Origin: Pseudobdellovibrionaceae bacterium
Lineage (GTDB): Bacteria; Bdellovibrionota; Bdellovibrionia; Bdellovibrionales; Bdellovibrionaceae
Reading direction: 5' to 3'
DNA length: 64,000 bases
NCBI GenBank assembly: GCA_019637875.1
Contig: JAHBUW010000009.1
Span: forward strand, 1 to 64,000
The translations under genes were made by a program, and so were the position numbers. Positions 4,834-46,078 of this stretch are shown here, in pieces (within the stretch, counting starts at the first letter, position 1; the number at the start of each line of letters is the position of its first letter). The notes beneath the pieces were generated by a model. That model saw only the letters and a list, made by a program, of their open reading frames with translations, had not been told where the DNA came from and searched no databases.

Positions 4834-7092
4834 CTAGAACGAGAAATCGTCAGATTCTCCACTGCTTCCTCCAGTTTGACTCGGAATCACCTGGCTATCA
4901 AGCTGGCCGAGGATTCGCGGAGTCAGGAACATCAGCAGCTCGTTCCGCTGCTCGGATTGGTTATTAGATCGAAACAACCAGCCAATGACCGGCAGGCGTC
5001 CCAAGCCCGGGACGAGCGTATCAGTATTACGCGCATCATTTTGATAAATCCCGCCGATGACCGCCGTCTGACCGTTCTTCACCATCACGCGAGTCGACGC
5101 CTTACGACTGTTGATCGAGGGCGCGCCGTCTTGATTGTTCGCGATTTCCCCCGCGAACTCACGCAGCATATCGATCTTCATCATGACCGCGCCGTCGTTG
5201 GTCAGCTGGGGAGTCACTTCCAGCGCGAGTTTCGTGTCCTTGAAGCTGACGGACGTGATCGTCGAGCCGTTCGAGATCTGCGTCTGCCGCACCGGAATCT
5301 GCAGGACCTGCTCGATGTTCGCTTTTTCGTTATGCATGGTCACGATCCGCGGTGAAGATAGAACGCGGACTTTCCCCTCTTGCTCGAAGAGGTTCAGCGT
5401 CGCATTCAGATCCCCCAGGATATCGAAGGTCCCGAGGTTGAATCCCAAGGTCATGGAGCGGTTCGCGGGCACGTCCGGGTTCACCGAGAAGTTGTTGTTC
5501 ATACGGACCGGCCCCTGCGAACTCGAAAGCACGTTGCGGCCCGAGCCGATTTGGGTCGGCGCCCCCGTGAAGTTCCACTGAATTCCCATGGACTCTTCGG
5601 AGTTCTCGACGGCTTCGACGATTTTACCCTCGATCAAGACCTGCTGCGGAGGCACGTCGAGCGACTGCACCACTTTCGCGGCACGATCGATGTTTTCCTC
5701 GAAGTCCGTGATGATGAGCGCCGAAGTCCGGGGATCCGAAACGACGGTTCCCGTTTTGGAGAGCATATTCTTGATCTGCTTCTCGAGGTCTTCGACCTTC
5801 GCGTAGTTCACCTGCAGCGTGCGCACCTTCGGGGCCGCATTCTGACGGCGCTGGGCCTGCAGGTCGAAAGAGTCTTTCTCTTCTTTCTGGATGTCCGCGA
5901 TATTCGCGATCCGCAAGACGTTGCCGCTGCGGGTGTAGCCGAGCTTCTTCGTTTTCATCAGCAACACGAGCGCTTGATCCCAAGGGACGTTCTTCAATTT
6001 CACGCTGACTTTCCCGTCGACGCCGTCCGCGAGGATCAAGTTCACGTTCGCTTCGTCGGAAATCAACTTGAAGACTTCGCGGACTTCGACTTCATCCGTT
6101 TCGATCGAGATCTTTTTGCCGTAGAAAGTCTGGTTGTTGGCCAAGAAGTCCTCGAGATTTTCCGAAGTCATCAGCTTCGACGGCGGAATGTCGGACTCGG
6201 TCGGCCCCTCGTCGTAGTTCTCTTGGTCCATCGAGGTGTTTTGCGCCATGCTGTCCGACGAAGGCATCGGCGGCGACGTCACGACCAAAAGGGCGTTCCC
6301 CTCGGCCTGAATGACCGGCTCCGGGCTGTTCGGACGCAGTTGGACGACGACACGGGTGGTGGTGCTGCCCGCGTTCTGGTAAGCGTCGACCGCCCCGACG
6401 GTGCCGCCGAAATCGCGTGTGTTCAACGGGCGCTTCAAACGCGCCGGCAACTTCGAGTTCGGGATCTCGATGACGAACTGATTCGTGTCCGAATTCAGGC
6501 GTTGGTTGAACTGCATCGGACCGTCGCCCTGAACGACCACCGTGCCGCCGTTGTCGTTCGCACGGAACTGAAGTTCGGTGATATTGACGATTTGTCCCGT
6601 GGGCTCGCCCATCGCGGGCTCATCCCCCATGGGAGGCTGCTGCGCCATCGGATCGGAACCGGGGATGTCCGTCGGCGGAATTTCGGCCGGGGGAATCTCT
6701 TCCACCGGAGCGTCCCCTTGCGCCTGCTGGTCCATCGGCGCTTCTTCCGCCGGAAGGCCGAGCGGATCTTCACCCGCGAACGAATCGCCGCCACCGGGAT
6801 CCACGGCCGCATTGCCGTCTTCGCTGGGCGCTTCTTCGAATTGCGAGAACTCATCCGAGCCGCCACCGCCGGAGCTGTCCTCGGCGATTTCACCTTCGAT
6901 CGCGTCTTCCGCTTCGGTGCCGAAATCGCCGCCGGCGTTATCGCCCGAAGACTCGAAATCCGAGAAATCATCCGCCGCGACGTCTTGTTCGCCTTCAGGG
7001 CTATCCACGGACTGCGTCGAGCAACCGGTCACCATCGCGAAGATGACGATCGCCGAGATCCCCAGGCGCATACTTTTTTTGAATCCGTCCAT
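4834..7092 (-). CDS. pilQ: Type IV pilus secretin PilQ with an N-terminal lipobox
   Basis: PilQ forms the outer-membrane ring through which the pilus passes. The protein (about 752 aa) has: signal segment ending in MVTGCS (lipobox-like); an acidic Gly/Ser/Asp-rich then Pro-rich linker (about residues 30-150); an AMIN domain (about 155-270); a secretin/TonB short N-terminal domain (EVDEVREVFKLISDEANVNLIL); a secretin N1 domain (VRTLQVNYAKVEDLEKQIKNML); and the C-terminal secretin barrel with VPGLGRLPVIGWLFR and RNELLMFLTPRIL. I chose the ATG at 7092, with AGGAG in front, over an upstream in-frame ATG (7134) that would add 14 non-signal residues. It follows pilP by 44 bases. Confidence 0.97.
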   Translation of the reverse strand: MDGFKKSMRLGISAIVIFAMVTGCSTQSVDSPEGEQDVAADDFSDFESSGDNAGGDFGTEAEDAIEGEIAEDSSGGGGSDEFSQFEEAPSEDGNAAVDPGGGDSFAGEDPLGLPAEEAPMDQQAQGDAPVEEIPPAEIPPTDIPGSDPMAQQPPMGDEPAMGEPTGQIVNITELQFRANDNGGTVVVQGDGPMQFNQRLNSDTNQFVIEIPNSKLPARLKRPLNTRDFGGTVGAVDAYQNAGSTTTRVVVQLRPNSPEPVIQAEGNALLVVTSPPMPSSDSMAQNTSMDQENYDEGPTESDIPPSKLMTSENLEDFLANNQTFYGKKISIETDEVEVREVFKLISDEANVNLILADGVDGKVSVKLKNVPWDQALVLLMKTKKLGYTRSGNVLRIANIADIQKEEKDSFDLQAQRRQNAAPKVRTLQVNYAKVEDLEKQIKNMLSKTGTVVSDPRTSALIITDFEENIDRAAKVVQSLDVPPQQVLIEGKIVEAVENSEESMGIQWNFTGAPTQIGSGRNVLSSSQGPVRMNNNFSVNPDVPANRSMTLGFNLGTFDILGDLNATLNLFEQEGKVRVLSSPRIVTMHNEKANIEQVLQIPVRQTQISNGSTITSVSFKDTKLALEVTPQLTNDGAVMMKIDMLREFAGEIANNQDGAPSINSRKASTRVMVKNGQTAVIGGIYQNDARNTDTLVPGLGRLPVIGWLFRSNNQSEQRNELLMFLTPRILGQLDSQVIPSQTGGSSGESDDFSF

Positions 7093-7136
7093 GGCCACTC
7101 CTATCCGGGTCCGCATCCTTGCGGTCCCGCGCAAAT

Positions 7137-7850
7137 CTACTTCCGCATTCCAATCACCCGGGTGTTCGCATTCACATACGTTCCATCCGGATTCGGCTCC
7201 GCCACCACGATTTCGCTTTCACGAATCGCCACGACGACCGCTCCTTCACGTCCCAAGCGGATCTTCTTACGAATCACGTACGTCTTTTTGTCGCCCGCCA
7301 GGATCATCGCCCGCGGTTCGCGCACGCTCCACATCACCGCGACGAGTTTGTACTCGCTGAGCGGGAAGGCCTGGAGCGGATCTTGCGCGTTGTAATCCAG
7401 CTCGGTCACGGGCCGCGCTTCCTCCAGAGGAATTTCGGGGCGCCCCTGTCGCGAGGGGAAGAACGGATCGCGCAAGCCTTCGGGGTTGTAAATGAAACCC
7501 TCGGGATTCACGTTCCGTTGCATCAGCGCATCGGGAGTCTGCATGTCCAGACCTTCCCCCGGAGGCAGATCCGGTGGCATCGCCTGCCCCTCGGGAAGCG
7601 GCATATCCGACGGCGGCGGCGCCCCCATCATATCGGGCGGCAAAGCATCCGACGGAGGAGGCAAAGACCCGTCCGCAGGCGGCGGCAAATCCATGGCCGG
7701 CGGCAAAGCATCGCTCGGCGGCGGGAGCGCGCCGTCGACCTGCGCTTGCGCGCTCGAGCCGCGGCCGCTGGCGAAGTAAAGTCCGCTAGCGACGCCTAAA
7801 AGCATCATGCCCGCGGCGATTCCCTTTTGGATGGAGAGCTTGGAATTCAT
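7137..7850 (-). CDS. pilP: Type IV pilus assembly lipoprotein/linker PilP with proline-rich N-terminus
   Basis: PilP links the inner-membrane PilNO complex with the PilQ secretin. This 237-aa protein has an N-terminal membrane anchor (residues 9-27, GIAAGMMLLGVASGLYFAS), then about 75 residues of imperfect proline repeats (PPPSDALPP-type), and a C-terminal PilP beta-sandwich (GLRDPFFP, FPLSEYKLVAVMW, AMILAGDKKTYVIRKKIRLGREGAVVVAI). There is no clear lipobox, unlike classical PilP. The stop-start overlap with pilO (4 bases) shows coupling. The repeat part is also visible in DNA (7600-7740) and is a plausible site of length change. Confidence 0.95.
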   Translation of the reverse strand: MNSKLSIQKGIAAGMMLLGVASGLYFASGRGSSAQAQVDGALPPPSDALPPAMDLPPPADGSLPPPSDALPPDMMGAPPPSDMPLPEGQAMPPDLPPGEGLDMQTPDALMQRNVNPEGFIYNPEGLRDPFFPSRQGRPEIPLEEARPVTELDYNAQDPLQAFPLSEYKLVAVMWSVREPRAMILAGDKKTYVIRKKIRLGREGAVVVAIRESEIVVAEPNPDGTYVNANTRVIGMRK

Positions 7851-8476
7851 CTTCCGGCCCCCCGGCGCGAATTGCTGCGCTTCTCTTTCGCTTTCGGCTC
7901 GGGTCCGACGAACTTGAAGCTCGCGATCTCGGCGTCCATGGTCATGCGGTTCGCCGCGGTTCCGCCACGGCGCTTTTCCGTGGGACCTTCGAAAGTAAAC
8001 GACCGAACGCGGTACACGCGCTCGATCGTGGAAAGATTGAAGAAAAACATCGTCATTTCCGAGAAGCTGCCCTCGGCGGTCACGCGGATGGGATACGACT
8101 CAAGGATGTCCTCGCGAATCGCCGCTTTCGGCTCTTTCGTTTTGATGGTGATCCCCGACGTTTTCGCCATCGTATCGACGGTACGGATAACTTCCGCGGA
8201 ATCCAGATCCGTCGGAATCTGCGAGGACACGATCTGGAACTGTTCCGAGAGCGCCTTGTAGCTGGCCTCAAGCTGCGAGCGGCGGGCGAGGGCGCGGTCG
8301 GTCTCTTTCTCTTTTTCGCGCTCGACATCGAGCTGCTTGCGCGTTTCGGCGATACGGCGACGAACCGCCGATCCGTCGTCGTAAGCCGCGCCGTAATAGA
8401 TTCCGGTGATGATCAAACCGATCACCAAAGCTTTACCCGTCGTGAGGCTAGCGATGCGCGCGAGAATAGGATTCAT
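7847..8476 (-). CDS. pilO: Type IV pilus inner-membrane protein PilO
   Basis: PilO pairs with PilN in the inner-membrane alignment platform. The 209-aa protein has one membrane segment (about residues 15-32), a coiled coil (about 37-80, rich in Glu/Arg: RRRIAETRKQLDVEREKEKETDRAL), and a ferredoxin-like C-terminal fold (ESYPIRVTAEGSFSEMTMFFFNLSTIERVYRVRSF). The sequence fits PilO family length and topology. It overlaps both pilN and pilP by four bases in ATGA-type junctions. Confidence 0.95.
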   Translation of the reverse strand: MNPILARIASLTTGKALVIGLIITGIYYGAAYDDGSAVRRRIAETRKQLDVEREKEKETDRALARRSQLEASYKALSEQFQIVSSQIPTDLDSAEVIRTVDTMAKTSGITIKTKEPKAAIREDILESYPIRVTAEGSFSEMTMFFFNLSTIERVYRVRSFTFEGPTEKRRGGTAANRMTMDAEIASFKFVGPEPKAKEKRSNSRRGAGR

Positions 8477-9114
8477 TGGGACCGATCCATGTTACAGACA
8501 ATTTCGAATCTTTTGACCGCGCCAATTTCCGCAACCGTCGCTTCGGTGGATCTGACCAATTGAATTTCTTTAAGGTAGGCACTCCGCTGCAGACCTTCCA
8601 TGAAGGTCGTCAGTTCAGAGTCCGTCGTGGCATATCCCGCGATGCTGAGGCGGCCTTGATTCAGATCCATCCGTTGCAGCCAGACTTTTTCGGGAATTTC
8701 GCGTTGAATATAGTCCAGCACCCGAACCTCACGTAGACGATCGCGCTTGATCGCTTCGATGGCATTGATTTGGTTTTGCAGGACCGTTTGCTCGGACTCG
8801 AAACGCGCGATCTCTTTCACGACGTCCGCGGCGCCGACGTTCTTCTTCTTCACTTCGTCGAGCTGACGGCGAAGGGACGTCGCCGACGAGCGAAGCGGGG
8901 GCACGTTCGACTGCTCGTAAATGTAAAGGGCCAGTACGCCGATCAACATCAACACCAAATTGATGAGCAATGTGCGGTTCGTGTTGTCTACGCTCGCGAA
9001 TTCATCCGCCAGGCCCGCATCCGAGATGCCCCCCGAGCGCAACGAGAAGTTGCCGAGCCCACCGCCCGACTTCTTTCCGCCCATCCCTTTTTTGGCGAGG
9101 TTGACCTTAATCAT
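8473..9114 (-). CDS. pilN: Type IV pilus inner-membrane protein PilN
   Basis: The 213-aa protein begins MIKVNLAKK, the short cytoplasmic PilN motif (I-N-L) that docks into PilM. A 45-residue Gly/Ser-rich insert follows, then a membrane segment (LLINLVLMLIGVLALYIYEQ, about residues 50-69), a coiled coil (about 75-115), and a periplasmic fold (VWLQRMDLNQGRLSIAGYATTDSELTTFMEGLQ). The glycine-rich spacer between the PilM-binding motif and the membrane helix is longer than in textbook PilN. It overlaps pilM by four bases. Confidence 0.95.
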   Translation of the reverse strand: MIKVNLAKKGMGGKKSGGGLGNFSLRSGGISDAGLADEFASVDNTNRTLLINLVLMLIGVLALYIYEQSNVPPLRSSATSLRRQLDEVKKKNVGAADVVKEIARFESEQTVLQNQINAIEAIKRDRLREVRVLDYIQREIPEKVWLQRMDLNQGRLSIAGYATTDSELTTFMEGLQRSAYLKEIQLVRSTEATVAEIGAVKRFEIVCNMDRSQ

Positions 9115-10163
9115 CCGTCGCCCAGCTTTCTGAGCCCCAAACCGAACGCCACCGCGCAGAAGGGCGCGATCTGCTCCATGTACATGGTCGAGATTTTTTT
9201 ATTCCCTGAAACCACGCGCTGGCAGGGATTTAAATATTCGAAATTAAGGCGGGTCGCTTGCGACAAATTCCGAATCAAGCCCGGCGTCGCGGCCGCGCCC
9301 CCCGTGTAATAGACCTGCGAGATATTCAATCCGCCGGAGCTTCCCGCGAAGAAATCGAAGCTGTTGCGAATCTCTTCGGAAAGCACTTCGGTCGTCGAGC
9401 TGAGAACGCTGTGGACTTCGTCCGGCACCGCGCCGCCCGAAGCGGCCGACAGCTTCAACGACTCGGCCTCGCCCAAAGACACGCCCATCTCTTTGTGGAT
9501 GTCGTTGGTGTAGTTCTGCCCGCCGATCGGCATATCACGGCAGAAGACAACTTCGCCGTTCGCCACCACGACAAAATTCGTGATCGCCGAGCCCACGTTG
9601 ATCAAGCCGACGGCCTGCCCTTCCGGACGGCCGTAGTTGAATTCGAAGACGTTCGCGAGAGCGAACGCGCTGACGTCCAGAACCCCCATCTTCAGATCGG
9701 CGTTCTGCACGACTTGATAGTACTCGGCGACGAGCTCGTTCTGCGCGGCGATCAGCAGGATGTCCATCGTCTCGGAGGCTTCTTTGGGATTGATCACATG
9801 GTGCGCGAGCGAGATCGAGTTCACGTCGAAGGGGATGTACTGCTCGGCTTCCCATTTCACCTGTTCGTTCACGAGCTTCAAATCGATCCGTGGAATCGTG
9901 ATCTTCTTCACGATGACGGCGGTACCGAACATGCCGACCGCGGCGTTTTTGCGTTTGGCTTTGATTTCGGCGCAGACGGTTTTGATCGCGACCGCCAAAG
10001 AACTGACATCCGCGATGTCCCCACCGTTAATCGAGTTCGGTGGCGTCTGGATCATGCCGAAGTTCACGAGCTTCGCCCCGCTCTTCGAGACGTCGAGTTC
10101 GGCCACTTTGATGGAGCTCGAGCCAATGTCGAGTCCTAACACTTTATTGGCGCTGAAAAACAC
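9111..10163 (-). CDS. pilM: Type IV pilus assembly ATPase-fold protein PilM
   Basis: PilM is an actin-like cytoplasmic protein that binds the PilN N-terminus. The 350-aa protein shows the phosphate-1 motif GLDIGSSSIKVAEL near the N-terminus, LINVGSAITNFVVV (phosphate-2), and the adenosine motif YYTGGAAATPGLIRNLSQ. The start is GTG (10161-10163); no ATG is available in frame close by. It is the first gene of the pilMNOPQ operon, with a good promoter 42 bases upstream. Confidence 0.96.
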   Translation of the reverse strand: MFFSANKVLGLDIGSSSIKVAELDVSKSGAKLVNFGMIQTPPNSINGGDIADVSSLAVAIKTVCAEIKAKRKNAAVGMFGTAVIVKKITIPRIDLKLVNEQVKWEAEQYIPFDVNSISLAHHVINPKEASETMDILLIAAQNELVAEYYQVVQNADLKMGVLDVSAFALANVFEFNYGRPEGQAVGLINVGSAITNFVVVANGEVVFCRDMPIGGQNYTNDIHKEMGVSLGEAESLKLSAASGGAVPDEVHSVLSSTTEVLSEEIRNSFDFFAGSSGGLNISQVYYTGGAAATPGLIRNLSQATRLNFEYLNPCQRVVSGNKKISTMYMEQIAPFCAVAFGLGLRKLGDG

Positions 10164-10338: not shown

Positions 10339-11145
10339 TTATCCCGGAGGCGGGAAAAGCCAAGCGAGGGAGCTCGTCGAGATCCAATCCCCCGCAAAAA
10401 GCAGAATGAGTGCCGCCAGCGCCAGGTAAGGCCCGAAGGGAATCACGGCCTTCATTCCCGATTTATCCCGCAAGGCGACGATCAAGCCGCCCACGCTGCC
10501 GAGAATGCTGCTGCAAAGAATGACGAAGGGAATGCTCTGCCAGCCGAGCACGGCGCCGATCCAGGCCAGAAGTTTCATGTCGCCACCGCCCATGCCGTCT
10601 TCTTTGCGCACAAGAAAGTAAACGTAAGCGAGTGACCACAGAAAACCGTAACCGAACACCGCGCCGATCAGAGCGTCCCAGAAACTGCGATCGGGATTTA
10701 GGGCGCCGCCCACGAGCCCGATCACGATTCCCGAAAGCGTCAAGATATCCGGCAGCAGAAAGTGATCAAGGTCGATCACCGAGGCCGTCACCAGCGCGAA
10801 GATGAAAGGCAAACTTTCCGCGAAACTCCAAGTCCACCCGAAGCGCCAGAAAGCGAGCGCGAAAAGCGTCCCCATCAACAGTTCGACCATCGCGTAGCGA
10901 ATCGAAAACTTCGCGCCGCAGTTGCGGCACTTCCCCCGCAGGATGAACCAGGTCAGGATCGGGATATTGTCGTACCAAGCGATCTGCTTTTTACAGGAGT
11001 TGCAGCGGCTGCGGGGGGTGACGACGCTTTCCCCCTCGGGCCAGCGGAGGATGAAAACGTTCGCGAAACTTCCCCAAAGCGCACCGAACACGAAGAAAAA
11101 AACGATCCCGTAAATCGGCGGAAGCGCCGTGATAAGCTCAAACAA
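10339..11145 (-). CDS. pilD: Prepilin peptidase / N-methyltransferase PilD (A24 family)
   Basis: PilD cleaves the leader of type IV prepilins and N-methylates the new N-terminus. The 268-aa membrane protein has the N-terminal domain with two CxxC zinc pairs (CNSCKK, CRNCG), and both aspartates of the aspartyl peptidase: VIDLDHFLLPD and the GGGDMKLLAWIGAVLG (GxGD) motif. Multiple membrane segments follow. A TTG at 11143-11145 preceded by GGAGG is the best start. It overlaps the end of the upstream permease gene by 8 bases, so pilD is probably translated from the ABC-transporter transcript. It would process the prepilin-like proteins at 26177-30298 as well as the pilins. Confidence 0.95.
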   Translation of the reverse strand: MFELITALPPIYGIVFFFVFGALWGSFANVFILRWPEGESVVTPRSRCNSCKKQIAWYDNIPILTWFILRGKCRNCGAKFSIRYAMVELLMGTLFALAFWRFGWTWSFAESLPFIFALVTASVIDLDHFLLPDILTLSGIVIGLVGGALNPDRSFWDALIGAVFGYGFLWSLAYVYFLVRKEDGMGGGDMKLLAWIGAVLGWQSIPFVILCSSILGSVGGLIVALRDKSGMKAVIPFGPYLALAALILLFAGDWISTSSLAWLFPPPG

Positions 11146-18798: not shown

Positions 18799-19497
18799 CT
18801 AATCGACGCGCATCCAAAGGCGGTCCGTGCGCACCGAGGGCGGCCACTTCGCTTTCGAGCCCGCCCAGTCCAGGGACAGCCAGATCAAAAACACGCGGCC
18901 CTCGATCCGCTCGAGCGGGACCGAGCCCCAGTACCTGGAGTCATCGCTCGAATCACGGTTGTCGCCGAGAAGGAAAACCTGTCCCTGGGGCACCAAAATC
19001 GGCCCGAAATCCTGGCGGACCGCGTTCCGCTTGAGCAGAACCTCGCGGGCTCCCTCCGTGGCCATCTCACGGTAAACGTCGAGACCGTCAAAACCGGGAA
19101 GGTCGCGGATCAGTGACGCGTCCCCGGGCTCGTACTTCATTTGCACGCCGTTCACTTCGAGCCGACCCGCTTTGATCTGCACCAGATCACCCGGCAGCCC
19201 GATGACGCGCTTCACATAGTTCACGCGTGGTTGATCCGGAAAGGTGAAAACGACCACTTGGCCACGGCGGGGGGCCTCGATGCCCACTTTGATTTGCGTC
19301 AGCGGAATTTTCAGGCCGTAAGGAAGTTTGTAACTGAAAATGAAGTCACCCGGCTTGAGCACCGGCGCCATCGTGCTGGTCGGGACACGGTAGCCCGAAA
19401 CGACGAACGTGCGCACGACCAGCGCGAGCAGCACGGCGATCAAAATGCTTTCGACGTAGTCCTGCCAACGGCGCAGGCCTGGAGAGTTCTTCTTCAC
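18799..19497 (-). CDS. lepB: Signal peptidase I paralogue with Thr at the nucleophile position
   Basis: The 232-aa protein has one membrane helix (residues 17-34) and an S26 signal peptidase fold. The general-base Lys is present (NYVKRVIGLPGDLVQI, K96), as are boxes D/E (LLGDNRDSSDDSRYWGSVP). Where active enzymes have PSGSMxP, this one reads VPTSTMAP (residues 38-45), so Thr42 (codon 19372-19374) replaces the catalytic Ser. The paralogues at 19505 and 20256 keep Ser. It may be a slow enzyme, an enzyme with altered substrate range, or a non-catalytic partner. It lies 7 bases downstream of the second copy. Confidence 0.9.
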   Translation of the reverse strand: MKKNSPGLRRWQDYVESILIAVLLALVVRTFVVSGYRVPTSTMAPVLKPGDFIFSYKLPYGLKIPLTQIKVGIEAPRRGQVVVFTFPDQPRVNYVKRVIGLPGDLVQIKAGRLEVNGVQMKYEPGDASLIRDLPGFDGLDVYREMATEGAREVLLKRNAVRQDFGPILVPQGQVFLLGDNRDSSDDSRYWGSVPLERIEGRVFLIWLSLDWAGSKAKWPPSVRTDRLWMRVD

Positions 19498-19504
19498 ACG
19501 TTGT

Positions 19505-20248
19505 TTAGTCTACGCGCTCATGAATGGATGTCAAAAGGCGGGTCCAGCGAATCGTTTCTGGATCGCAAACGAAAGGCGCCGTCGCCAGCGTGTCCCGGCA
19601 CGCGAGCCAAATGAAAGATGCACGTCCCAGGACATTGTCGCGGGGAACGAAGCCCCACACGCGCGAGTCCGCCGATTCGTCGCGGTTATCCCCCATGACA
19701 AAAAGGGAGTCGGGCGGCACCTCGAAGTCCTCGGCGGGATTCTGGATCATGTCTTCGTCCGCTTGAAAGCGCACCCAGTGGTCATTCTCGGTGAAGTATT
19801 CGTAATCGTGATCGGCGCCTTCTTCCGGCGACCGAATATCATCCGGCAAAGAGGACAGATCCGCTTTCGCCCGGCGCGCGACTTCTTTTTCGTTGATGAA
19901 AAGACGGCGACCGTCGACGCGAATGCGATCTCCGGGAAGTCCGATGACCCGCTTCACGTAAAAGACTTCGGGATTTTCCGGATAGTGAAAAACGATGACG
20001 TCGCCACGGGCGGGCGCGCGCCAAGTGACCATCCACTGCCGCGAGAACGGAACCCGAATTCCGTAAGAGAGCTTATTCACGAAAACGTGATCGTGGATCA
20101 GCAAGGTCGGAATCATCGACCCCGAAGGGATCACGTAGGGTTCGATCAACAGCCAACGACTGATGGCGATCAGAAAGATCGGCAGGAAGAAAGAAAACAG
20201 GGCCCGGGGCCATGTCGTTTTCAGGCTGGTCCCGGTCGGCGCGGACAT
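19505..20248 (-). CDS. lepB: Signal peptidase I (second copy), 247 aa
   Basis: This S26 family enzyme cleaves Sec signal peptides at the outer face of the inner membrane. It has a single N-terminal membrane segment (residues 16-36), the catalytic PSGSMIPTLL (Ser44), Lys99 in VFYVKRVIGLPGD, and VMGDNRDESADSRVWGFVP. It is most like the third copy at 20256, which starts upstream, and their spacing is 7 bases. The region between box C and box E (about residues 115-155) has an acidic insert (SSLPDDIRSPEEGADHDYEY) different from its paralogues. Confidence 0.95.
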   Translation of the reverse strand: MSAPTGTSLKTTWPRALFSFFLPIFLIAISRWLLIEPYVIPSGSMIPTLLIHDHVFVNKLSYGIRVPFSRQWMVTWRAPARGDVIVFHYPENPEVFYVKRVIGLPGDRIRVDGRRLFINEKEVARRAKADLSSLPDDIRSPEEGADHDYEYFTENDHWVRFQADEDMIQNPAEDFEVPPDSLFVMGDNRDESADSRVWGFVPRDNVLGRASFIWLACRDTLATAPFVCDPETIRWTRLLTSIHERVD

Positions 20249-20255
20249 GCGCGAC

Positions 20256-21053
20256 TCAATTCACGCCGTGGAAGAAACGGGTCCAGCGCAAGGTCAGCGG
20301 GTTACACAGGATGTTCACGACCGGCAGGGTCTCTTCGCACGAGAGCCAGACGATGCTCGCCCGCCCCAGGATCAGGTCACGGTGGAGCATGCCCCACACG
20401 CGGCTATCCGAGGAGTTGTTGCGGTTGTCGCCCATCATGAAGAAATGCTCGGCCGGCACGGTCACCGGACCATAGGTATCGAAGTTTTCGCCCTTGCGGA
20501 CCAGAATGGAGTGCTCTTTGTTTTCGAGCACTTCCGTGAAGTGCACGTAGTTTTCCAGAACGTCCTGGCGTCCGCCGTCGGTACCGAGGTCTTCGTCACG
20601 CATCCACTGCAGATCGTCGTTCGACACCGGGGGCTTGCGCTCCATGGGTTTGTCGTTGATCCACAAGACGCCGTTTTCATAGAAGATCTTATCGCCCGGA
20701 AGACCCACGATCCGCTTGATGTAGAAGATGTCGGTGTCGTTCGGATATTTGAAGACGATGACTTCGCCGCGCTGGGGTTCGTTGAAGCGGGTCATCCACT
20801 TCGAGCTGAACGGAACGCGCAGACCGTAGGTGAACTTGTTCACGAAGATGTGATCGTGGATCAAAAGCGAAGGCAGCATTGAACCCGAGGGGATCACGTA
20901 GGCTTCGAAGAAACCCCAACGGATGAACAGGGCCAGCAGAACCGCCAGCGCGATCGAGCCCCAGCCTTCTTTCCAGAAATACGCGCTCCGGATATTCCAG
21001 GTGTCCGCGTTTTTAGAGGTGTCGGTCTGAGTCTCGGTCGGTTTTTCAGCCAC
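20256..21053 (-). CDS. lepB: Signal peptidase I (first copy, after lepA), 265 aa
   Basis: This is the copy in the classical lepA-lepB position: its ATG directly abuts the lepA stop codon. A hydrophilic N-terminal tail (residues 1-28) precedes the membrane segment (33-49). The catalytic Ser58 is in PSGSMLPSLL, the Lys in FYIKRIVGLPGDKIFYENGVLWIN, and box E is MMGDNRNNSSDSRVWGML. It is likely the housekeeping enzyme. The three tandem copies suggest heavy or specialised secretion. Confidence 0.96.
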   Translation of the reverse strand: MAEKPTETQTDTSKNADTWNIRSAYFWKEGWGSIALAVLLALFIRWGFFEAYVIPSGSMLPSLLIHDHIFVNKFTYGLRVPFSSKWMTRFNEPQRGEVIVFKYPNDTDIFYIKRIVGLPGDKIFYENGVLWINDKPMERKPPVSNDDLQWMRDEDLGTDGGRQDVLENYVHFTEVLENKEHSILVRKGENFDTYGPVTVPAEHFFMMGDNRNNSSDSRVWGMLHRDLILGRASIVWLSCEETLPVVNILCNPLTLRWTRFFHGVN

Positions 21054-24605: not shown

Positions 24606-26009
24606 TCACTCTTCGGTCAACCACTGAGCGCTGCAAGGCGAGACGGAAGAGAAGTCCGTATTGGGACGGAAGGCGCTATTGGGAATGATCTCTTCGGTGC
24701 CGTCGGGTTTCGTCCAAAAGAGCTTCAAATAGGACTGCCCCACCAACGCCGAATACTCGATCACGATCGGATAGTGATAACCCTTCGTCAGTTCGTAACC
24801 GATCGAATGCGCCTCGCGGATGGCGTTCTCGCCCTTCATCAAAAAGATGGGTTCGGATTCGATCGAAATCTTCAAAGGATCCATCCCCTGAACCCGGAAA
24901 ACGTAAACCCCGTCCGTCGGCGGAATCAGAAAGCCCGTGTAACGAACCGAGAAATTGTCAGTCGAAACCCCCGCCACCGGAGCCGAAGCCCCCCAGTTGA
25001 AATTGATGTAAGGCTCGATCTTTTCGACCCGGACGTCACGGAAATCGGTGCCTTCCGCGTACCGTGCGAAGAGCCCCCGGGAGGGATCCAGCGTGGGCGC
25101 CGTTCCGCCATCCGAAATCGGCGCGTAACCGTACATGATCCGCACCGAGTTGATGTCTCCCAGAGACAACCCCAGACGCTGCCCGATCGTGATTCCCGCG
25201 GGGACGGCCACTTTCGGCGTGATGGTGTCGGACACGAAGTCCGAGGCGAACGCATTCCGGGTGTAGTGCATGATCGAGCCAAAGTCGTAGAAGTTGTAGT
25301 TCTGGTACCCGTCCACGATCTCGAAGTTCAGCTTATACGCCGGCGCGATGTTCGAGTAGTTGATGGTGACGTAGTTGTTTCGGTCCAAGCGATTCTGCTC
25401 GTGATCGAGGCCCACGATGTGGCCGATTTCGTGCGCGACGTTCCCCGCGCCGCAGTCCGGCCCCACGTTCACGGGGTGAATGCCGTCTCCGGCCAGGAAA
25501 CCCACCGGCGCCGAGCAGCCGCTGTTCACTTTCGTGAAGCGCAGATAGTCCGACTGAGTCGTCCGCGGAATCAGGGAAATGACACCGCTCAAATTTTGAT
25601 TCCAATGCGTGATGGCGTCCGTCACCCGTTGCTTATCCGGCAGCGTGGGATCGATCTCGTAAGGAATGACCCCGTCCTTCCAGCGACCCGAGGCCGGCAC
25701 TCCGACCCCTTGCGATCCCGGAAGCGGTTGGGACGGCAAAATGCCGCCCTTCACTTTCAGCAGGCGGTCCCCGTCGACCAGAATCCAATCGTCTTCTTGC
25801 GGAATGTAATGGACTTTGCTTTGGCCGATATAGCCCACACGGTAGTCGTCTTGCCGGTATCCCGACAAATGCGTCTCGTCTTGGCGACACATCGATTGCA
25901 GATCGAGGTCATCGTCATTCGAGAATTGAAAATTACGAGAGCAGGCGTTCCCGAATCCCATAAGGACGACGATCGAGACCAGCCACACCCCTAGAACCTT
26001 GCGACTCAT
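24606..26009 (-). CDS. Secreted astacin-type zinc metalloprotease lipoprotein with C-terminal PA14 domain
   Basis: The 467-aa protein has a lipoprotein signal (GFGNACS, Cys near 23) and a propeptide-like region. The M12A catalytic domain (about 105-290) carries the full zinc site HEIGHIVGLDHEQNR (three His, Glu base) and the Met-turn SIMHYTRNAF with its Tyr. A PA14 domain (about 310-455, LFARYAEGTDFRDVRVEKIEPYINFNWG, then FSVRYTGFLIPPTDGVYVFRV) follows and probably binds carbohydrate. It would act at the cell surface on host or prey envelope or on its own adhesins. It is divergent from the prepilin-like adhesin genes, with 167 bases between them. No Shine-Dalgarno is visible; a GCCGATAC element 10 bases upstream suggests a nearly leaderless transcript. 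Confidence 0.93.
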   Translation of the reverse strand: MSRKVLGVWLVSIVVLMGFGNACSRNFQFSNDDDLDLQSMCRQDETHLSGYRQDDYRVGYIGQSKVHYIPQEDDWILVDGDRLLKVKGGILPSQPLPGSQGVGVPASGRWKDGVIPYEIDPTLPDKQRVTDAITHWNQNLSGVISLIPRTTQSDYLRFTKVNSGCSAPVGFLAGDGIHPVNVGPDCGAGNVAHEIGHIVGLDHEQNRLDRNNYVTINYSNIAPAYKLNFEIVDGYQNYNFYDFGSIMHYTRNAFASDFVSDTITPKVAVPAGITIGQRLGLSLGDINSVRIMYGYAPISDGGTAPTLDPSRGLFARYAEGTDFRDVRVEKIEPYINFNWGASAPVAGVSTDNFSVRYTGFLIPPTDGVYVFRVQGMDPLKISIESEPIFLMKGENAIREAHSIGYELTKGYHYPIVIEYSALVGQSYLKLFWTKPDGTEEIIPNSAFRPNTDFSSVSPCSAQWLTEE

Positions 26010-26018
26010 GTCTAGTTA

Positions 26019-26026
26019 GTATCGGC
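26019..26026 (-). promoter_or_regulatory. Sigma28-like -10 element before the astacin gene
   Basis: GCCGATAC matches 7/8 of the FliA -10 consensus GCCGATAA. The -35 position (TGATTTCC, 11 bases upstream) is a poor match to TAAAGTTT. The start would be about 3 bases before the ATG. Confidence 0.35.
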
Positions 26027-26125
26027 GAATTCGAGACGGAAATCATGGAAGCTCCGTCGAAAAATGTCTCGCGTTTCAAGGTGATGCGAACGTCTTAACC
26101 AAACCTTCGAAGTGGTGAAAAAAGA

Positions 26126-26152
26126 TCAAGACCTGGCCCAAACTGCCGATCT
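26126..26152 (+). promoter_or_regulatory. Sigma28 (FliA)-like promoter of the adhesin cluster
   Basis: TCAAGACC-N11-GCCGATCT has exactly the FliA spacing (consensus TAAAGTTT-N11-GCCGATAA), with 3/4 of the -35 core and 6/8 of the -10. The start would be near 26160, directly before AAGAGGAG and the GTG start at 26177. A TATTAT at 26153-26158 is an alternative sigma70 -10 without a clear -35. Confidence 0.45.
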
Positions 26153-26176
26153 ATTATTCAGCAAGAGGAGAACTCC

Positions 26177-28492
26177 GTGCAGTTGAACCACCGTGTCTCG
26201 AAATTAGACCGCCGAACTCAACGCGGATACGTGTTGGTGGAGGCCTTGCTCGTCACCGTGGGTATCGGATTTCTCGCCGTGGCCTCGATCAGCTTGCAAG
26301 ATACGTTGACCCGCAACCAAGCGAAGGTTTCGATCCACTCGCAGCTTTCGGAAATGCGCCGGATGGTCATGGAGAACCTCAACAATCCCGGCGTCTGGGA
26401 ACAGATCGTTCAAAATCCCGAAAACGGAATTAAACAATGTCTGTCGGACTCGGATGAGGTCTGCGACTACCGTCCGCCGAAAGCGATCGGTCTTGAAGTC
26501 AGCGCGGCCTCGAAACTTTATATTGATCCGAAGAAACCCGAGATCGGCTTCGGGATGAACCTCGAGGGTTGTGAAACCTTCGAACTGAAAGAAAGTCCCG
26601 CCACCGCGTGCCCCTTCCAAGCGAGTCTGCTGTGGCAACCCATCTGTTCGGTCGGGGGGGATTGCAAACAAGTCGAAGTCTCGGTCGATCTGAAGGCCGA
26701 TCCGCGCTTCGAAAAGCTGTACTCTTTTTCGTCGGAGTCCTACTCGCTGAAAATCAAGAAAAACGTCAGCCTGAAGAGAACCGAAATGGTTCCGGGCAGC
26801 CGCACTTTGAGTTTCAAAGCGGACTCGAGCGCGCCGAAAGCGGTCAAAGTCTTTCTGATCGTCGATAACTCGACCTCCATGACCGATAACCGCGAGACGA
26901 TGGCGAAGGGACTCGAAAGCTTCGTCGAAGGCATGAAGGGTTATGACGTTCAGTACTACGTTTACACCACGGAATCGATCGTCAACGCCATCTGGAATTA
27001 CTATCCCTACATCGACGAGACCGAACTTTCGCCGACCCGAGTTTGGGACTACGGCCCCGGAATCTGGACGATGCCGGATAACTCGACCAAACCGGGCCGC
27101 TTCGATTGGATGACCGTTCCCAGTCAGAAATTCAAACGTTGGGACGGACGGATTCAGCTCGCGCCCGACATGGGTCAACGCTGGAACCTCGATCTTCACC
27201 AAGATGCGAACGAAACGAATCTTGCGGGAATCAAAGCGACGCTCACCAAAATCATGAGGGATGTCGAGAATCCGAAGGCCGATCTCGAGGGCGGTCTTTG
27301 CACCATGGCGCACATCCTGAACGATACCGGACCGAACAGCCCCCTCAAACCGGGCGATAGCGCGATCTTTCTGACGATGTCCGACGAGGACGACGTCGGT
27401 TTCACAAACGACGGCGGTTACAGTACGATCTGTCCGGGAAATATCGGCGTTCGTCCGAATGACGAATCTCTCGTTCACCACGCTCACTGTGATCGGAGTA
27501 GGCCCGAGACTTGCGACTCGATGCAAATCTCTTTGCGTAAGCCAGACAAGTACTACAAGACCCTCTACTTCCAGTGGAAGCAGAAGGATTCCGTGTGGGA
27601 CGCGTGGGCGGACACCTGCGAAAGCTTCGTAAAAGGCGAATGCGGCGAGACCGGAACGGAAATGGCCTGCACACGCGCCGAAGTTCCCTGGGCGGACCCG
27701 GACGGCTGGAAGTGGAACAATAAATGTACCGCCAAAGTCCAGCGATCGACTCAGGAAGAGTGGTGGCTCCTGGATCGAAAAGACCTCGATAGCGGAAACG
27801 TGAATCCCAACAAAGACTACTGCACGCAGCCTTTCACCTACAAAGGCGTGAACTATACCGACGCGAAAGATTTCGCCGTCCGCTTCGGCAAGATCGACCT
27901 CGCGTCCCTGCACGCAACCAAACCGACGTGCTGGCTCAACTTCTACACGCACGAACCCTTCCAGGAAGCGCAATGGGCGATTCTGAACTCGGAGCACGAA
28001 ACCGGGAACGATCTATGGGACTGGAAAAAGTATCAAAAACCAATGGAGACTCTGTACGCGTCCATCCCCGGGAAACTGCGCGAAACCTTCGGTCAGGATG
28101 GATACGGTGTTTACACGGTGGTGCACGACAAGGATCGCGATGCCTCGGCAGGTTGCGTGCTCGCGGAGGACTCGGGTTCTTACGGCAGCAAATACAAAGA
28201 CGTTCTTCTGGCCACCGACACGCCCGGGAACTTGATCAGCGTCTGCCAAGACAACTACTCGGCGTCGATCGAACACATGCGAACCCAGGCCCAACAGATC
28301 GCGCGGGATACGTACGTCCTCGATCCGTTTGATCCGAACACCGAGAGGGTCTATTCGGTGCAGGTCCAGCGCGGCGGCGCACCGCTGATCTTGACCAAAG
28401 CCGACTACGGAATCTCGGGCAGCAACGTCCAGTTCAAGGCGGGCTTCATTCAGGGAAGCGACCAGATTACGGTTGTCATCGTTCCGAAATAA
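26177..28492 (+). CDS. Prepilin-like protein with C-terminal von Willebrand A domain (predicted tip adhesin)
   Basis: The 771-aa protein begins with a class III (prepilin) signal: RRTQRG then YVLVEALLVTVGIGF, with cleavage after Gly17 and Glu at +5. Residues about 40-210 form a minor-pilin-like domain with paired cysteines. Block motifs NNPGVWEQIV and CPFQASLLWQPICS are shared with the gene at 29732. From about 220 a vWA domain follows, with the MIDAS start FLIVDNSTSM (Asp230) and LTMSDEDDV (Asp403); a long Cys- and Trp-rich insert (about 430-640) may be a second adhesive part. The start is GTG with AAGAGGAG six bases upstream. It heads a three-gene unit. PilC/PilY1-like or pilus-tip vWA adhesins are the closest known idea, but this fusion is different. 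Function inferred. Confidence 0.9.
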   Translation: MQLNHRVSKLDRRTQRGYVLVEALLVTVGIGFLAVASISLQDTLTRNQAKVSIHSQLSEMRRMVMENLNNPGVWEQIVQNPENGIKQCLSDSDEVCDYRPPKAIGLEVSAASKLYIDPKKPEIGFGMNLEGCETFELKESPATACPFQASLLWQPICSVGGDCKQVEVSVDLKADPRFEKLYSFSSESYSLKIKKNVSLKRTEMVPGSRTLSFKADSSAPKAVKVFLIVDNSTSMTDNRETMAKGLESFVEGMKGYDVQYYVYTTESIVNAIWNYYPYIDETELSPTRVWDYGPGIWTMPDNSTKPGRFDWMTVPSQKFKRWDGRIQLAPDMGQRWNLDLHQDANETNLAGIKATLTKIMRDVENPKADLEGGLCTMAHILNDTGPNSPLKPGDSAIFLTMSDEDDVGFTNDGGYSTICPGNIGVRPNDESLVHHAHCDRSRPETCDSMQISLRKPDKYYKTLYFQWKQKDSVWDAWADTCESFVKGECGETGTEMACTRAEVPWADPDGWKWNNKCTAKVQRSTQEEWWLLDRKDLDSGNVNPNKDYCTQPFTYKGVNYTDAKDFAVRFGKIDLASLHATKPTCWLNFYTHEPFQEAQWAILNSEHETGNDLWDWKKYQKPMETLYASIPGKLRETFGQDGYGVYTVVHDKDRDASAGCVLAEDSGSYGSKYKDVLLATDTPGNLISVCQDNYSASIEHMRTQAQQIARDTYVLDPFDPNTERVYSVQVQRGGAPLILTKADYGISGSNVQFKAGFIQGSDQITVVIVPK

Positions 28493-28517
28493 GTTTCTCA
28501 TTGAAGGGATGGGAGCG

Positions 28518-29744
28518 ATGAACGACCGCTACGGACAACATGGATTTTCATTGCTCTCGGTCGTCGTCGCCAGTCTGATCATGACGATCAGCTTTCTATT
28601 CATCAGTCAGATCCTTCTGCAAACCCAGACCATCGGCCAACAGCAAGAGCGTTTCGCGCAGTTCAACGATCTGCGCGACGACATGATGGCCCAGCTTTCG
28701 AACAAATGCGCCATTGCCAATACCGTGATCGCCCAAGACAACGCCGAAGGAATGCGTTGTCTGTACGAAGGCGATTGCCGCGCCGGCGAACCGCGCGTGC
28801 TCAATCTGCGCGATGACCGCAACGAAAGCGTTTACGACGAAAAGTCGACGAAGAATCGCCAATTGAACGGCCAAGGTGCGCCCTGCACCCCCGAGCGCAA
28901 CGACTGCAGTCACGAGTTTCACATGCAGTACACGTTGAAATGCGCGGACGGTTCGGCCTGTAAACTTCCATTCCTTCTGGTGGAAGGTAAGTTCCAGGAG
29001 TTTCCCCAGAAAAAAGACGATCCGAAAGAGGAAGGCGAGGAAGCGCCTCCGACTCACGGAAAGAACTCGGTGAACTACAACCTCTACCGTTTCGAAAAGC
29101 AGGTCGTTTACTCGCGCCCGTACAAGAACTGCAAGGAAGTCATGTCACGCGGACTCGCGCAGTCCCCGCCGATCCAAATGGCCTCGGGCATTTACACTCT
29201 GGATCCCGATGGGGCCGGTGGCGAGTGTCCCTTCGAGGTCTACTGCGACCTTGCCCCCACCAGTGATGGCGGAGGCTGGGCCCTGGTCGCGAACCAAGGA
29301 CTCGCTTCGGAAATTCTGACGGAACGAACCCCGCCGCTTCACCAAGGCATGACCGGGCGACTGCCGGAAAAGATCTTCAAAGTGCTTCTCGAAAATTCCG
29401 CAAGCCCCGGCCACAACAACGTCCGTCTTAAAATCGACAGTCGCATTTCGCGAAAACACGTCCTGAGCTTCAGCATCCCGAAATCCGCCACCCCCGGCTC
29501 CTACGTGACGGCGCAAACTTACTGCCAGTCCGTCGAGCCTCAGGCCGAAAGCACGAGCTTTGAAAAGGGCGGGGTTTATTCCTTCCGCGCCGCCAGCCCG
29601 GCGACAACGATCGGTTTTTCGGATCAGAAGTTTCAATGCAATTCGTGTGACCCGACGGTCGTCAATACCGTCTGCAACGAAATGCCGAACGCCGGCTGCT
29701 GTTCCGCGACCACTCCGGTGGAAGGCTCCGTATGGATTCGCTAG
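28518..29744 (+). CDS. Prepilin-like protein with C-terminal fibrinogen-like (YCD...GGGW) domain
   Basis: The 408-aa protein starts MNDRYGQHG then FSLLSVVVASLIMTISFLFI, a prepilin leader cut after Gly9. The +5 residue is Ser, not Glu, as in tip-type minor pilins (GspK/PilX class). Residues 35-195 contain the same cysteine framework as its neighbours (CTPERNDC, YTLKCADGSAC, YNLYRFEKQVVY). From about 203 a fibrinogen C-terminal-like module follows: NCKEVMSRG, SGIYTLDPDGAGG, FEVYCDLAPTSDGGGWALV, with six or more later cysteines. Such modules bind sugars or proteins in animals and occur in bacterial surface proteins. The start was placed at the ATG with AAGGG nine bases upstream; the ATG at 28509 is possible. 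Its stop overlaps the next gene's start. Confidence 0.88.
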   Translation: MNDRYGQHGFSLLSVVVASLIMTISFLFISQILLQTQTIGQQQERFAQFNDLRDDMMAQLSNKCAIANTVIAQDNAEGMRCLYEGDCRAGEPRVLNLRDDRNESVYDEKSTKNRQLNGQGAPCTPERNDCSHEFHMQYTLKCADGSACKLPFLLVEGKFQEFPQKKDDPKEEGEEAPPTHGKNSVNYNLYRFEKQVVYSRPYKNCKEVMSRGLAQSPPIQMASGIYTLDPDGAGGECPFEVYCDLAPTSDGGGWALVANQGLASEILTERTPPLHQGMTGRLPEKIFKVLLENSASPGHNNVRLKIDSRISRKHVLSFSIPKSATPGSYVTAQTYCQSVEPQAESTSFEKGGVYSFRAASPATTIGFSDQKFQCNSCDPTVVNTVCNEMPNAGCCSATTPVEGSVWIR

Positions 29745-30298
29745 CGCCCCGCTACCTACGGGATCAGCGCGGCTTCGGCTTCGCCCAACTCATGGTCATC
29801 ATGCCCATCGTGTTGATCATCATGGGGTCTGCGGCCAGCTACTTTTACGACAAACTGCTGACCAACATTCAAGTGCGCGCGCGCTCAAATTTCGAAATCC
29901 ATCACCAGAACATGATGACGGACCTCGAGAACCCGATGGTGTGGGACGAAATTCTGCGCGTGAATGAAGCGTTTCATTGCATGGAAGACGAGACCTGCTC
30001 GACCGTCGCCAAACGGGACTTCATCGTGGTCGGCGTCGACGGCAAATATCTTTCAGGCCCGACCACGCCCGGCTATCGAATGGATGGCACGCCCTGCAAA
30101 CCACCTCAAGCCGGTGAAGAAGATCAAGTCTGCCCGATCCGGTGGCGCTTCCAGTGGCGGCCGATGTGCTCACGCGCGGACCAGTGCCCTTCGGATAGCG
30201 AGGTCGAATTTTTCGGAGAGCTGGTCGAAGACGCGCTTTTCGAATCAAACCTCAATCTTGATCGCTACAAGATCGTCCTTTACCGTCGGCTGTTCTGA
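29732..30298 (+). CDS. Minor-pilin-like protein without extra domain, 188 aa
   Basis: The prepilin leader ends RDQRG, then FGFAQLMVIMPIVLIIMGSAAS; the +5 residue is Gln. The body repeats the layout of the N-terminal part of the vWA protein: ENPMVWDEIL, two cysteines (HCMEDETC), CPIRWRFQWRPMC, and a final DRYKIVLYRR. It is therefore the bare version of the same module. It overlaps the previous gene by 13 bases (coupled). Its last 54 bases are antisense to the 3' end of potC. Confidence 0.85.
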   Translation: MDSLAPRYLRDQRGFGFAQLMVIMPIVLIIMGSAASYFYDKLLTNIQVRARSNFEIHHQNMMTDLENPMVWDEILRVNEAFHCMEDETCSTVAKRDFIVVGVDGKYLSGPTTPGYRMDGTPCKPPQAGEEDQVCPIRWRFQWRPMCSRADQCPSDSEVEFFGELVEDALFESNLNLDRYKIVLYRRLF

Positions 30299-37690: not shown

Positions 37691-38281
37691 TTACTCGGTA
37701 TCGCTCCGCTTCATGACCGCGAAATTGATTTCGCTCGCGCCAGCCTCGGTGACCGTATACATGACCTTCTTGACGGTCAAGAAATCGATCCCTTTATCGG
37801 CTTGAACGGTGATTTTGCTCCAGGGCGTGGGCTCGTCGGGAACCGGCTCACCCGGCGCCGTCGGCGGTTGAATCGCCTGACGAAGCTGATTGCCCAGTTT
37901 CGCTTCGTGCTTTTGCTTGGCCAACTCGATCGCTTTTTTCAGCGGCTCGGACAGGGGTTGCAGCAGCCAGTCTTCCTGGGTGCGCACGGCATCGAACGTC
38001 ATCACCGGCGTTTTGTCGATCAAGAGTTCCTTGGTGGAAATCGTGACGACGACCGCGGGTTTCAGTTCTTTGATTTCGGTGGCCTTCGGCAGCGTAACTT
38101 CCTTCGGGATGTAGATGATCTCGCCCGTGGACGAGTAGCTCTGCAGCAGGAAGATCACGAGCACCGTGAACATGTCGACCATCGCCGTCAGCGACAGCGC
38201 AGCGACCATTTCGCGCTTGCCGCCCCGACGAGACAGCAAACGGTGGTAGCGGAATTTTTCGCCTGGACGATGGATTGCCAT
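37691..38281 (-). CDS. ExbD/TolR-type motor protein (second copy), AglS/AglQ-like
   Basis: The 196-aa protein has a single N-terminal membrane segment with the proton-site Asp (LTAMVDMFTVLVIFLLQSY, about residues 32-50) and a periplasmic TolR-like fold ending in PWSKITVQADKGIDFLTVKKVMYTVTEAGASEINFAVMKR. It has a long insert (about 110-145). It pairs with the ExbB and ExbD proteins upstream in a proton-driven motor, and by context with a gliding machine. Confidence 0.9.
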   Translation of the reverse strand: MAIHRPGEKFRYHRLLSRRGGKREMVAALSLTAMVDMFTVLVIFLLQSYSSTGEIIYIPKEVTLPKATEIKELKPAVVVTISTKELLIDKTPVMTFDAVRTQEDWLLQPLSEPLKKAIELAKQKHEAKLGNQLRQAIQPPTAPGEPVPDEPTPWSKITVQADKGIDFLTVKKVMYTVTEAGASEINFAVMKRSDTE

Positions 38282-38282
38282 A

Positions 38283-38756
38283 CTAGTTCGGGCCCCCTGT
38301 GAGGACGGAAATTTGCGGGAACTGCGCTTGGATCATGACATCCATCGCTTTGATCAAATACTCGTAGGGAAGTTCATCCGACATCGCCACCGCACCGTCT
38401 TTTTTGTTCGGGTACTGTTGTTTGGCGTAGTCGAGCTGCTGTTTCAGCGCGACATCGTCGTATTGTTCACCCAATTTAGGAATCTGGTACGTGTTCTTCG
38501 CGAGCACCAAAACGTATCCGTTCGGACGCACGTCCAAACGCAGCGGCACGTCCGCTTCCTCGGGAACAGGCGGAGGAGGAGAATTCTCCGTTTTCTTCCC
38601 GTAAATGGAAGTACCGATCTGGATCATCGAAACTTGCGTCCACACCGCGGTCAGCAGCAGGAACGTGATGAGGACGGACATCAAGTCGATGAAGGGGACG
38701 AGGTTCGGTTCGAATGTCTTCTTTCGTCCCCCGCCGGATTCCTGAACTTCTGACAT
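38283..38756 (-). CDS. ExbD/TolR-type motor protein (first copy)
   Basis: The 157-aa protein has the membrane segment with the conserved Asp in LVPFIDLMSVLITFLLLTAVW (residues 20-40) and a short periplasmic domain (LDVRPNGYVLVLAKNTYQIP, YEYLIKAMDVMIQAQFPQISVLTG). It is three bases downstream of the ExbB gene and one base before the second ExbD. Two different ExbD proteins with one ExbB match the AglR-AglQ-AglS layout. Confidence 0.92.
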   Translation of the reverse strand: MSEVQESGGGRKKTFEPNLVPFIDLMSVLITFLLLTAVWTQVSMIQIGTSIYGKKTENSPPPPVPEEADVPLRLDVRPNGYVLVLAKNTYQIPKLGEQYDDVALKQQLDYAKQQYPNKKDGAVAMSDELPYEYLIKAMDVMIQAQFPQISVLTGGPN

Positions 38757-38759
38757 TGT

Positions 38760-39443: not shown

Positions 39444-39458
39444 ATTTCTCCTCGTAAA

Positions 39459-41606: not shown

Positions 41607-41908
41607 TTTGAACCCCGCCCGCGCTGCACGTCTTCAGATGTTCTTCTCATTTCCGGCACAAAATTCTCACGGAGTTTGATGAGTCGCTTGAAGTTGAAGT
41701 TCTTCTTTTGGAAGAGGTAGAACAGCTCGGGCTTCGCCGTCGCGCCTTCGACCAATTCATCTTCGAAGCTCAGCGACTTGGTTTTTTCACCCGCGGCGGG
41801 TTTACCCTTGGCTTGTGCTTGCGCATTCTCGAATGCACGCACGAATCCACCTCTCTGAAAAGAGGCGAACGACACGAATAGAACTAGAATCGTCGTCAAT
41901 AATTTCAT
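41603..41908 (-). CDS. Small secreted protein of the gliding-type cluster, 101 aa
   Basis: A signal peptide (MKLLTTILVLFVSFASFQRG) is followed by a charged mature part with SFEDELVEGATAKPELFYLFQKKNFNFKRLIKLRENFVPEM. I do not know a named family for it. The ATG at 41906-41908 was chosen because the signal peptide begins there; the longer frame overlaps the upstream gene. Its stop overlaps the FHA gene start. Its position matches the small GltF-like gene in myxobacterial clusters, but no homology can be claimed. Confidence 0.8.
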   Translation of the reverse strand: MKLLTTILVLFVSFASFQRGGFVRAFENAQAQAKGKPAAGEKTKSLSFEDELVEGATAKPELFYLFQKKNFNFKRLIKLRENFVPEMRRTSEDVQRGRGSN

Positions 41909-41927
41909 GCTGCAATTCCCGCGCTCA

Positions 41928-42821: not shown

Positions 42822-42823
42822 GA

Positions 42824-46075: not shown

Positions 46076-46078
46076 CGC

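Follow-up and report, generated by a model that had tools for sequence, protein, structure and literature searches.

Modular pilins, defined as a pilin module joined to a functional module that is not specific to pilus biology (Raynaud et al. 2021), are already known as a kind of protein, with 264 architectures in one survey (PMC8179133). In Streptococcus sanguinis, the modular pilins PilB, with a vWA module, and PilC, with a lectin module, occur together with PilA at the tip of the type IV pilus (PMC8179133, PMC9934059). Here, we analyzed a stretch of 64,000 nucleotides (positions 1 to 64,000 of contig JAHBUW010000009.1, assembly GCA_019637875.1; hereafter the window) from a Pseudobdellovibrionaceae bacterium, in which three consecutive genes, B, C and D, encode minor pilins sharing a six-cysteine body, and a fourth gene, A, is divergently oriented. 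The trio is part of a new modular minor pilin family of Bdellovibrionota, a diversified one. A search of the open-access literature found nothing on this six-cysteine family or on these proteins, and pilins go unmentioned in the main text of a comparative genomic study of the phylum published in 2024. A first-pass annotation of the window had stated that no described system has this exact set; this is literally true, although modular minor pilins with vWA or lectin modules are known in S. sanguinis.

The features of the trio are the following:

26177..28492, + strand: gene B, modular minor pilin of 771 amino acids with a GTG start (leader, six-cysteine body, vWA/MIDAS and beta-sandwich module)
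26177..26227, + strand: prepilin leader of B, MQLNHRVSKLDRRTQRG^ (sequence and family alignment)
26228..26767, + strand: mature six-cysteine pilin body of B, with glutamate at position 5 (Glu5) (family hidden Markov model (HMM), AlphaFold2)
26789..28489, + strand: predicted vWA (I-domain-like) module of B, with a long cysteine-bearing insertion and a terminal beta-sandwich (AlphaFold2, VIA)
26864..26878, + strand: MIDAS motif of B, D230-N-S232-T-S234 (alignment with homologs)
28509..29744, + strand: gene C, modular minor pilin of 411 amino acids, Ser5 body with a fibrinogen-like tail
28545..29039, + strand: mature six-cysteine pilin body of C (AlphaFold2, family HMM)
29178..29288, + strand: core of the fibrinogen-like domain of C, YCDxxxxGGGW (NF040941)
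29732..30298, + strand: gene D, minor pilin of 188 amino acids, six-cysteine body alone, with Gln5 (family HMM)

As only 16 nt separate B from C, and C overlaps D by 13 nt on the same strand, the trio is very probably transcribed as a single unit. Translation of C was placed at the ATG at 28509, with an alternative start at 28518, after GGGAG.

Relatives of the body were collected with the first 205 residues of B by an iterative HMM search over loci of related genomes, which yielded 63 proteins at E < 1e-30 and later 120. The six family columns are occupied by cysteine in 119, 118, 120, 120, 111 and 105 of the 120 members, all six being present together in 104 of them, and W-x-x-T, G-F and C-P are further conserved features of the body. 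The cysteines probably form a triple disulfide, of which we infer the pairing itself. Searches of Pfam and NCBIfam returned nothing for the body except the N-terminal motif and pilin models that are based on the helix, and its profile matches in the PDB are pilins, confined to the N-terminal helix; specificity beyond Bdellovibrionota was judged from these three resources alone. The combined motif (six cysteines, WxxT, GF, CP) marks proteins that databases label merely as 'prepilin-type N-terminal domain'.

In AlphaFold2 models, the bodies of B and C consist of a long alpha1 helix and a beta-sheet, with predicted local distance difference test (pLDDT) values of about 67–97, and of about 82–97 across residues 11–170 of the C body; the pilin-like fold expected for the N-terminal parts was thus recovered. 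No confident match to the globular part was obtained with the C model in Foldseek/VIA, where the best hit (Z 4.4) was an unrelated chain and the CFA/III pilin and S. sanguinis PilA scored at a non-evidential Z of about 3. A FastTree phylogeny of the bodies placed no close relatives beside B, C or D (distances over 2) and singled out no nearest set.

All three proteins begin with a basic leader ending in glycine and followed by a hydrophobic helix, as in type IV pilins (predicted cleavage sites RRTQRG^YVLVE in B, GQHG^FSLLS in C and RDQRG^FGFAQ in D). Support from Pfam N_methyl was weak or absent for the trio, with a match under the cut-off in C (E=0.015) and none in B or D, but the model recognizes 34 of the 63 family members, and the cleavage-site glycine is kept in 114 of the 120. 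Glu5 is present in 75 of 119 relatives and, within the trio, only in B; it is also missing from GspK and PilX, which are proposed to form the tip in known complexes (PMC7541494). The initial description of three consecutive genes with prepilin-type starts and one cysteine-framed body therefore held at their coordinates.

Residues 205–771 of B were modelled by AlphaFold2 as a vWA/I domain interrupted by a long, poorly predicted insertion and followed by a beta-sandwich. Integrin and VWF A domains compare to this model at Z 13–14.5, among them the integrin alpha2 I domain (VIA Z 14.5 over 189 residues; root mean square deviation (rmsd) 3.4; B 220–711) and the integrin beta3 headpiece (Z 13.4 over 253 residues; rmsd 5.2; B 205–771); the pilus tip protein PitA (Z 13.4, rmsd 11.1) and Mfa5 (Z 13.1) scored similarly. 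D230-x-S232-x-S234 fits the DxSxS motif in 11 homologs, with the aspartate and first serine invariant and S/T at the third position; E404 and D406 are also invariant in these, and the usual MIDAS threonine was not located. Although the Pfam scan of B gave no vWA match, fold and motif together identify a predicted vWA domain with a MIDAS, as first proposed. NF052240, the model of the Bdellovibrio MIDAS adhesins, scored 14.5 on B against a cut-off of 700 bits.

The fibrinogen-like domain proposed for C was also recovered: its tail matches NCBIfam GGGWT_bact (NF040941) over the cut-off of that model (E=2.6e-11), and Pfam Fibrinogen_C slightly under its own, over the first ~48 of 221 positions alone. 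The AlphaFold2 model of this tail is of low confidence. B (vWA) and C (GGGWT) each combine a pilin module with one that is not specific to pilus biology, while D, in agreement with the annotation, is body only.

The tails found on the six-cysteine body are of at least nine kinds: vWA, fibrinogen-like, RCC1, Laminin_G_3, Big_9, Peptidase_S74, TSP1, Calx-beta and collagen-like. Those beyond the two of the trio were located as follows:

Locus L050: RCC1 and Laminin_G_3 tails on six-cysteine bodies (Pfam)
Loci L053 and L062: Big_9 tails on six-cysteine bodies (Pfam)
Locus L112: Peptidase_S74 tail on a six-cysteine body (Pfam)
Loci L120 and L122: TSP1 tails on six-cysteine bodies (Pfam)
Locus L118: Calx-beta tail on a six-cysteine body (Pfam)
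Loci L067 and L111: collagen-like tails, slightly under the Pfam cut-off

The two tails of the trio also occur on probable lipoproteins, the vWA module on proteins with lipobox-like starts (loci L061, L069, L070 and L072–L074) and the C-type tail, over most of its length, at loci L193 and L194.

Across the phylum, 369 genomes were scanned with the 63-row profile, eight candidates being scored per genome, for which reason absences are not firm. Matches at E<1e-8, helix-only ones included, were obtained in 203 genomes, and at E<1e-15 in about 56, from families f1, f4, f6, f7, f10, f13, f20 and f26. When every candidate was scored in eight genomes of f16, a large family, matches reached no further than model positions 1–113 (the helix region with the first two cysteine columns at most), and none spanned the full body.

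The genome analyzed here encodes five full members, namely B, C and D and, on contig 16, a second set of two (L111 5753-8013, about 45.7–48.0 kb), the latter consisting of overlapping genes on the same strand for a 296-amino-acid Gln5 protein with a collagen-like end and a 459-amino-acid Glu5 protein. Family members usually come as tandem pairs or trios. At least two body members are present at 39 loci and at least three at 22; neighbouring pairs lie on the same strand in 50 of 59 cases, 44 of these with a gap below 60 nt, and the median same-strand gap is 2.5 nt. Glu5 and non-Glu5 members are mixed in 29 of the 39 multi-gene sets, and trios ordered Glu5/non-Glu5/Glu5 were observed eight times against 3.2 expected by label shuffling (p=0.010), in a sample of loci chosen by homology; the other three of four measures gave p values of 0.04–0.06. 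This E-x-E order resembles the I/J/K arrangement with its non-Glu5 proposed tip subunit, GspK or PilX (PMC7541494), a likeness that is suggestive, not strong.

Several further observations concern these sets. Eight six-cysteine loci (L049, L066, L068, L075, L123, L124, L127 and L137) share a neighbour family of ~360–570 amino acids, with no Pfam family in the four members tested, and loci L049, L066, L125 and L137 have a common GT2 glycosyltransferase, possibly linked to pilin glycosylation. In genome G121, a vWA-bearing six-cysteine pilin is split into two open frames of 315 and 447 amino acids (L043 5659-7964); this is a frameshifted or broken copy, intact ones being present elsewhere in that genome. 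No neighbour of the window trio was found conserved across relatives, bar a generic ABC transporter family.

Taken together, these data make it fairly probable that B, C and D are an exchangeable set of type IV pilus tip adhesins; the pilus-tip or pseudopilus adhesins originally suggested are backed by their sequence and fold, by the tandem arrangement of their genes and by their recurrence at the level of the phylum. The candidate assembly machinery is encoded in the same window:

4837..10163, - strand: pilQ, pilP, pilO, pilN and pilM, candidate assembly machine on the same contig, in a separate operon
10489..10806, - strand: Peptidase_A24 match of the prepilin peptidase PilD, in a 291-codon frame

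PilD is the only full-length prepilin peptidase found in the genome, the other A24 match being a smaller protein on another contig. It would cleave B, C and D after the leader glycine. The three proteins would then assemble into a small complex that initiates the filament, most likely a type IVa pilus assembled by pilMNOPQ and pilD, and remains at its tip, where B would show its integrin-like vWA/MIDAS domain and C its fibrinogen-like domain to outside partners, with D as the undecorated subunit. This model is drawn by analogy to PilA, PilB and PilC of S. sanguinis (PMC8179133, PMC9934059) and to proposals that alternative minor-pilin clusters provide pili with distinct tips (PMC7541494, PMC12075869). 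Prey may be what these tips bind. No PilY1-sized gene lies beside the trio, and a search with PF05567 (PilY1) was uninformative in that no control genome matched either. Elsewhere in this genome, further sets of large cysteine-rich prepilin-like genes lie outside the six-cysteine family (L038 5707-9166 and L040 14-6960); that of L040 starts with a cysteine-rich protein of at least 954 amino acids without a Pfam match, which could be a PilY1 counterpart.

Several points weigh against this assignment. The pil genes are present as annotated, but ~15–25 kb from the trio, and none of the other pilin-set loci examined, which were not searched systematically, lies beside pil genes. Two of the three proteins, with Ser5 (C) and Gln5 (D), lack Glu5, which could weaken their incorporation; the E-x-E statistic is modest and one of four measures, and the trio itself (E, S, Q) does not fit it. 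Lastly, the genome also has a type II secretion system (T2SS) with its own pseudopilins, and thus an alternative machine.

The T2SS is the basis of the strongest of the other explanations, which we consider unlikely: the trio would cap a type II secretion pseudopilus in the manner of GspHIJK, loading or expelling substrates rather than acting as pilus-tip adhesins. The pseudopilin operon of this genome, the matches of the N-terminal helix of a few family members to Gsp models and a six-cysteine pilin gene near T2SS-like genes at locus L068 of a relative are all consistent with it. However, that operon already has its own GspG–K-like set, the tails are of adhesion or carbohydrate-binding types, and the sets are scattered and, apart from L068, were not seen with gsp genes.

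Slightly less likely again is that the proteins are pilin-like adhesins held in the envelope without polymerising, the pilin N-terminus being an anchor that can be swapped for a lipoprotein anchor. The occurrence of both vWA and fibrinogen-like modules on pilin bodies and on probable lipoproteins would suit such a role, as would the absence of Glu5 from many members, yet the conserved six-cysteine body and the tandem sets with undecorated members suggest packing of subunits and not anchoring alone.

It had also been proposed that the trio acts together with the product of gene A in a single contact system that binds and trims its partners. Gene A is as follows:

24606..26009, - strand: gene A, probable lipoprotein of 467 amino acids with astacin (M12A) and PA14 domains (Pfam matches, ortholog alignment)

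The domain assignment was borne out by Pfam (Astacin E=1.3e-37, PA14 E=3.3e-19) and by the astacin signature HExxHxxGxxHE with its Met-turn (HEIGHIVGLDHE and SIMHY in A), both invariant across three orthologs save an I/V exchange at the third-turn residue. The divergent arrangement with B across 167 bp and the probable surface location of a lipoprotein with PA14 would favour a joint system. However, full-length orthologs in two related genera (genomes G008 and G018; 44–46% identity) lie, like A itself, next to hpf, metK and lepA, with no pilin beside either, and phmmer searches with A detected no astacin neighbour at the other fetched pilin-set loci. The pilin sets thus recur in other Bdellovibrionota without the co-localised astacin that had been anticipated, and a scan of the A–B region for sigma-70 promoters gave nothing above shuffled sequences, leaving the supposed common promoter region unsupported. 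We therefore rejected the astacin as a conserved pilin partner; gene A probably does not belong to the pilin system, and a joint contact-and-trim function is very improbable. In the window, the trio sits between A and pot-like ABC genes, which in G008 also come after the A block, a position consistent with insertion of the trio or with its loss in relatives. Full-length relatives of A were also found in Bdellovibrio sp. and a Bdellovibrionaceae bacterium by an astacin alignment scan.

Least probable of all is a tip for a DNA-uptake (competence) pilus, since the matches of the ComGE model to 11 of the 63 members reflect a likeness among pilin helices that is unspecific, the tail modules are of adhesion type, and no competence genes were spotted next to the sets.

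Beyond the trio, and with less confidence than for its assignment as tip adhesins, the family may represent phylum-specific exchangeable pilus tips of Bdellovibrionota, in which modules are swapped on one six-cysteine body and some have moved to lipoproteins. With many interchangeable modules on one body, a cell carrying multiple sets could vary the specificity of its pilus tips, and thereby the surfaces or prey that it grips. The known holding means of Bdellovibrio relatives (mosaic adhesive trimer (MAT) fibres, MIDAS lipoproteins and pilus retraction) leave the content of the pilus tip unexplained, and a defined body with readable tips would allow specificity to be predicted from sequence.

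Elsewhere in the window, a run of three signal peptidase I paralogs, lepB-like, was recognized by eye at 18799-21053, with syntenic counterparts at locus L192. Also by eye only, ExbB/ExbD-like genes accompanied by FHA and large repeat-type proteins (37691-47725) look like a motility or envelope-energising cluster. At 50087-51529, a PilZ domain is fused with an N-acyl amino acid synthase-like (FeeM) domain.

Among described systems, the MAT fibres of Bdellovibrio likewise present many alternative tips on one scaffold, some with an S74 chaperone (PMC10769870), but are trimeric beta-fibres with signal peptides and contain no pilin. The Bdellovibrio MIDAS adhesins Bd0875 and Bd1483 (NF052240) share the MIDAS-type vWA, a related module being found on probable lipoproteins in relatives; they have a lipobox (PMC11003981), whereas in the present case a pilin body carries the module. 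The Kil Tad pilus of Myxococcus, also a predator, has exchangeable minor-pilin tip complexes (PMC12075869), built from Tad/Flp pilins and assembly proteins and not from six-cysteine type IV prepilins. In the FimU/PilVWX-PilY1 system and the clusters of Myxococcus xanthus, alternative minor-pilin clusters have been proposed to provide different tips, with a vWFA domain at the tip and a non-Glu5 subunit (PMC7541494), but the vWA of the present locus is on the pilin itself and not on PilY1, no protein of that size being encoded beside the trio. The PilB, PilC and PilA proteins of S. sanguinis, for which a three-subunit tip has been modelled (PMC8179133, PMC9934059), also combine pilins bearing a grafted module, vWA or lectin, with a partner that lacks one; the trio differs from them in its six-cysteine body, which has no Pfam family past the N-terminal motif, in a fibrinogen-like module instead of a lectin, in its diderm host and in the many alternative sets found across the phylum.

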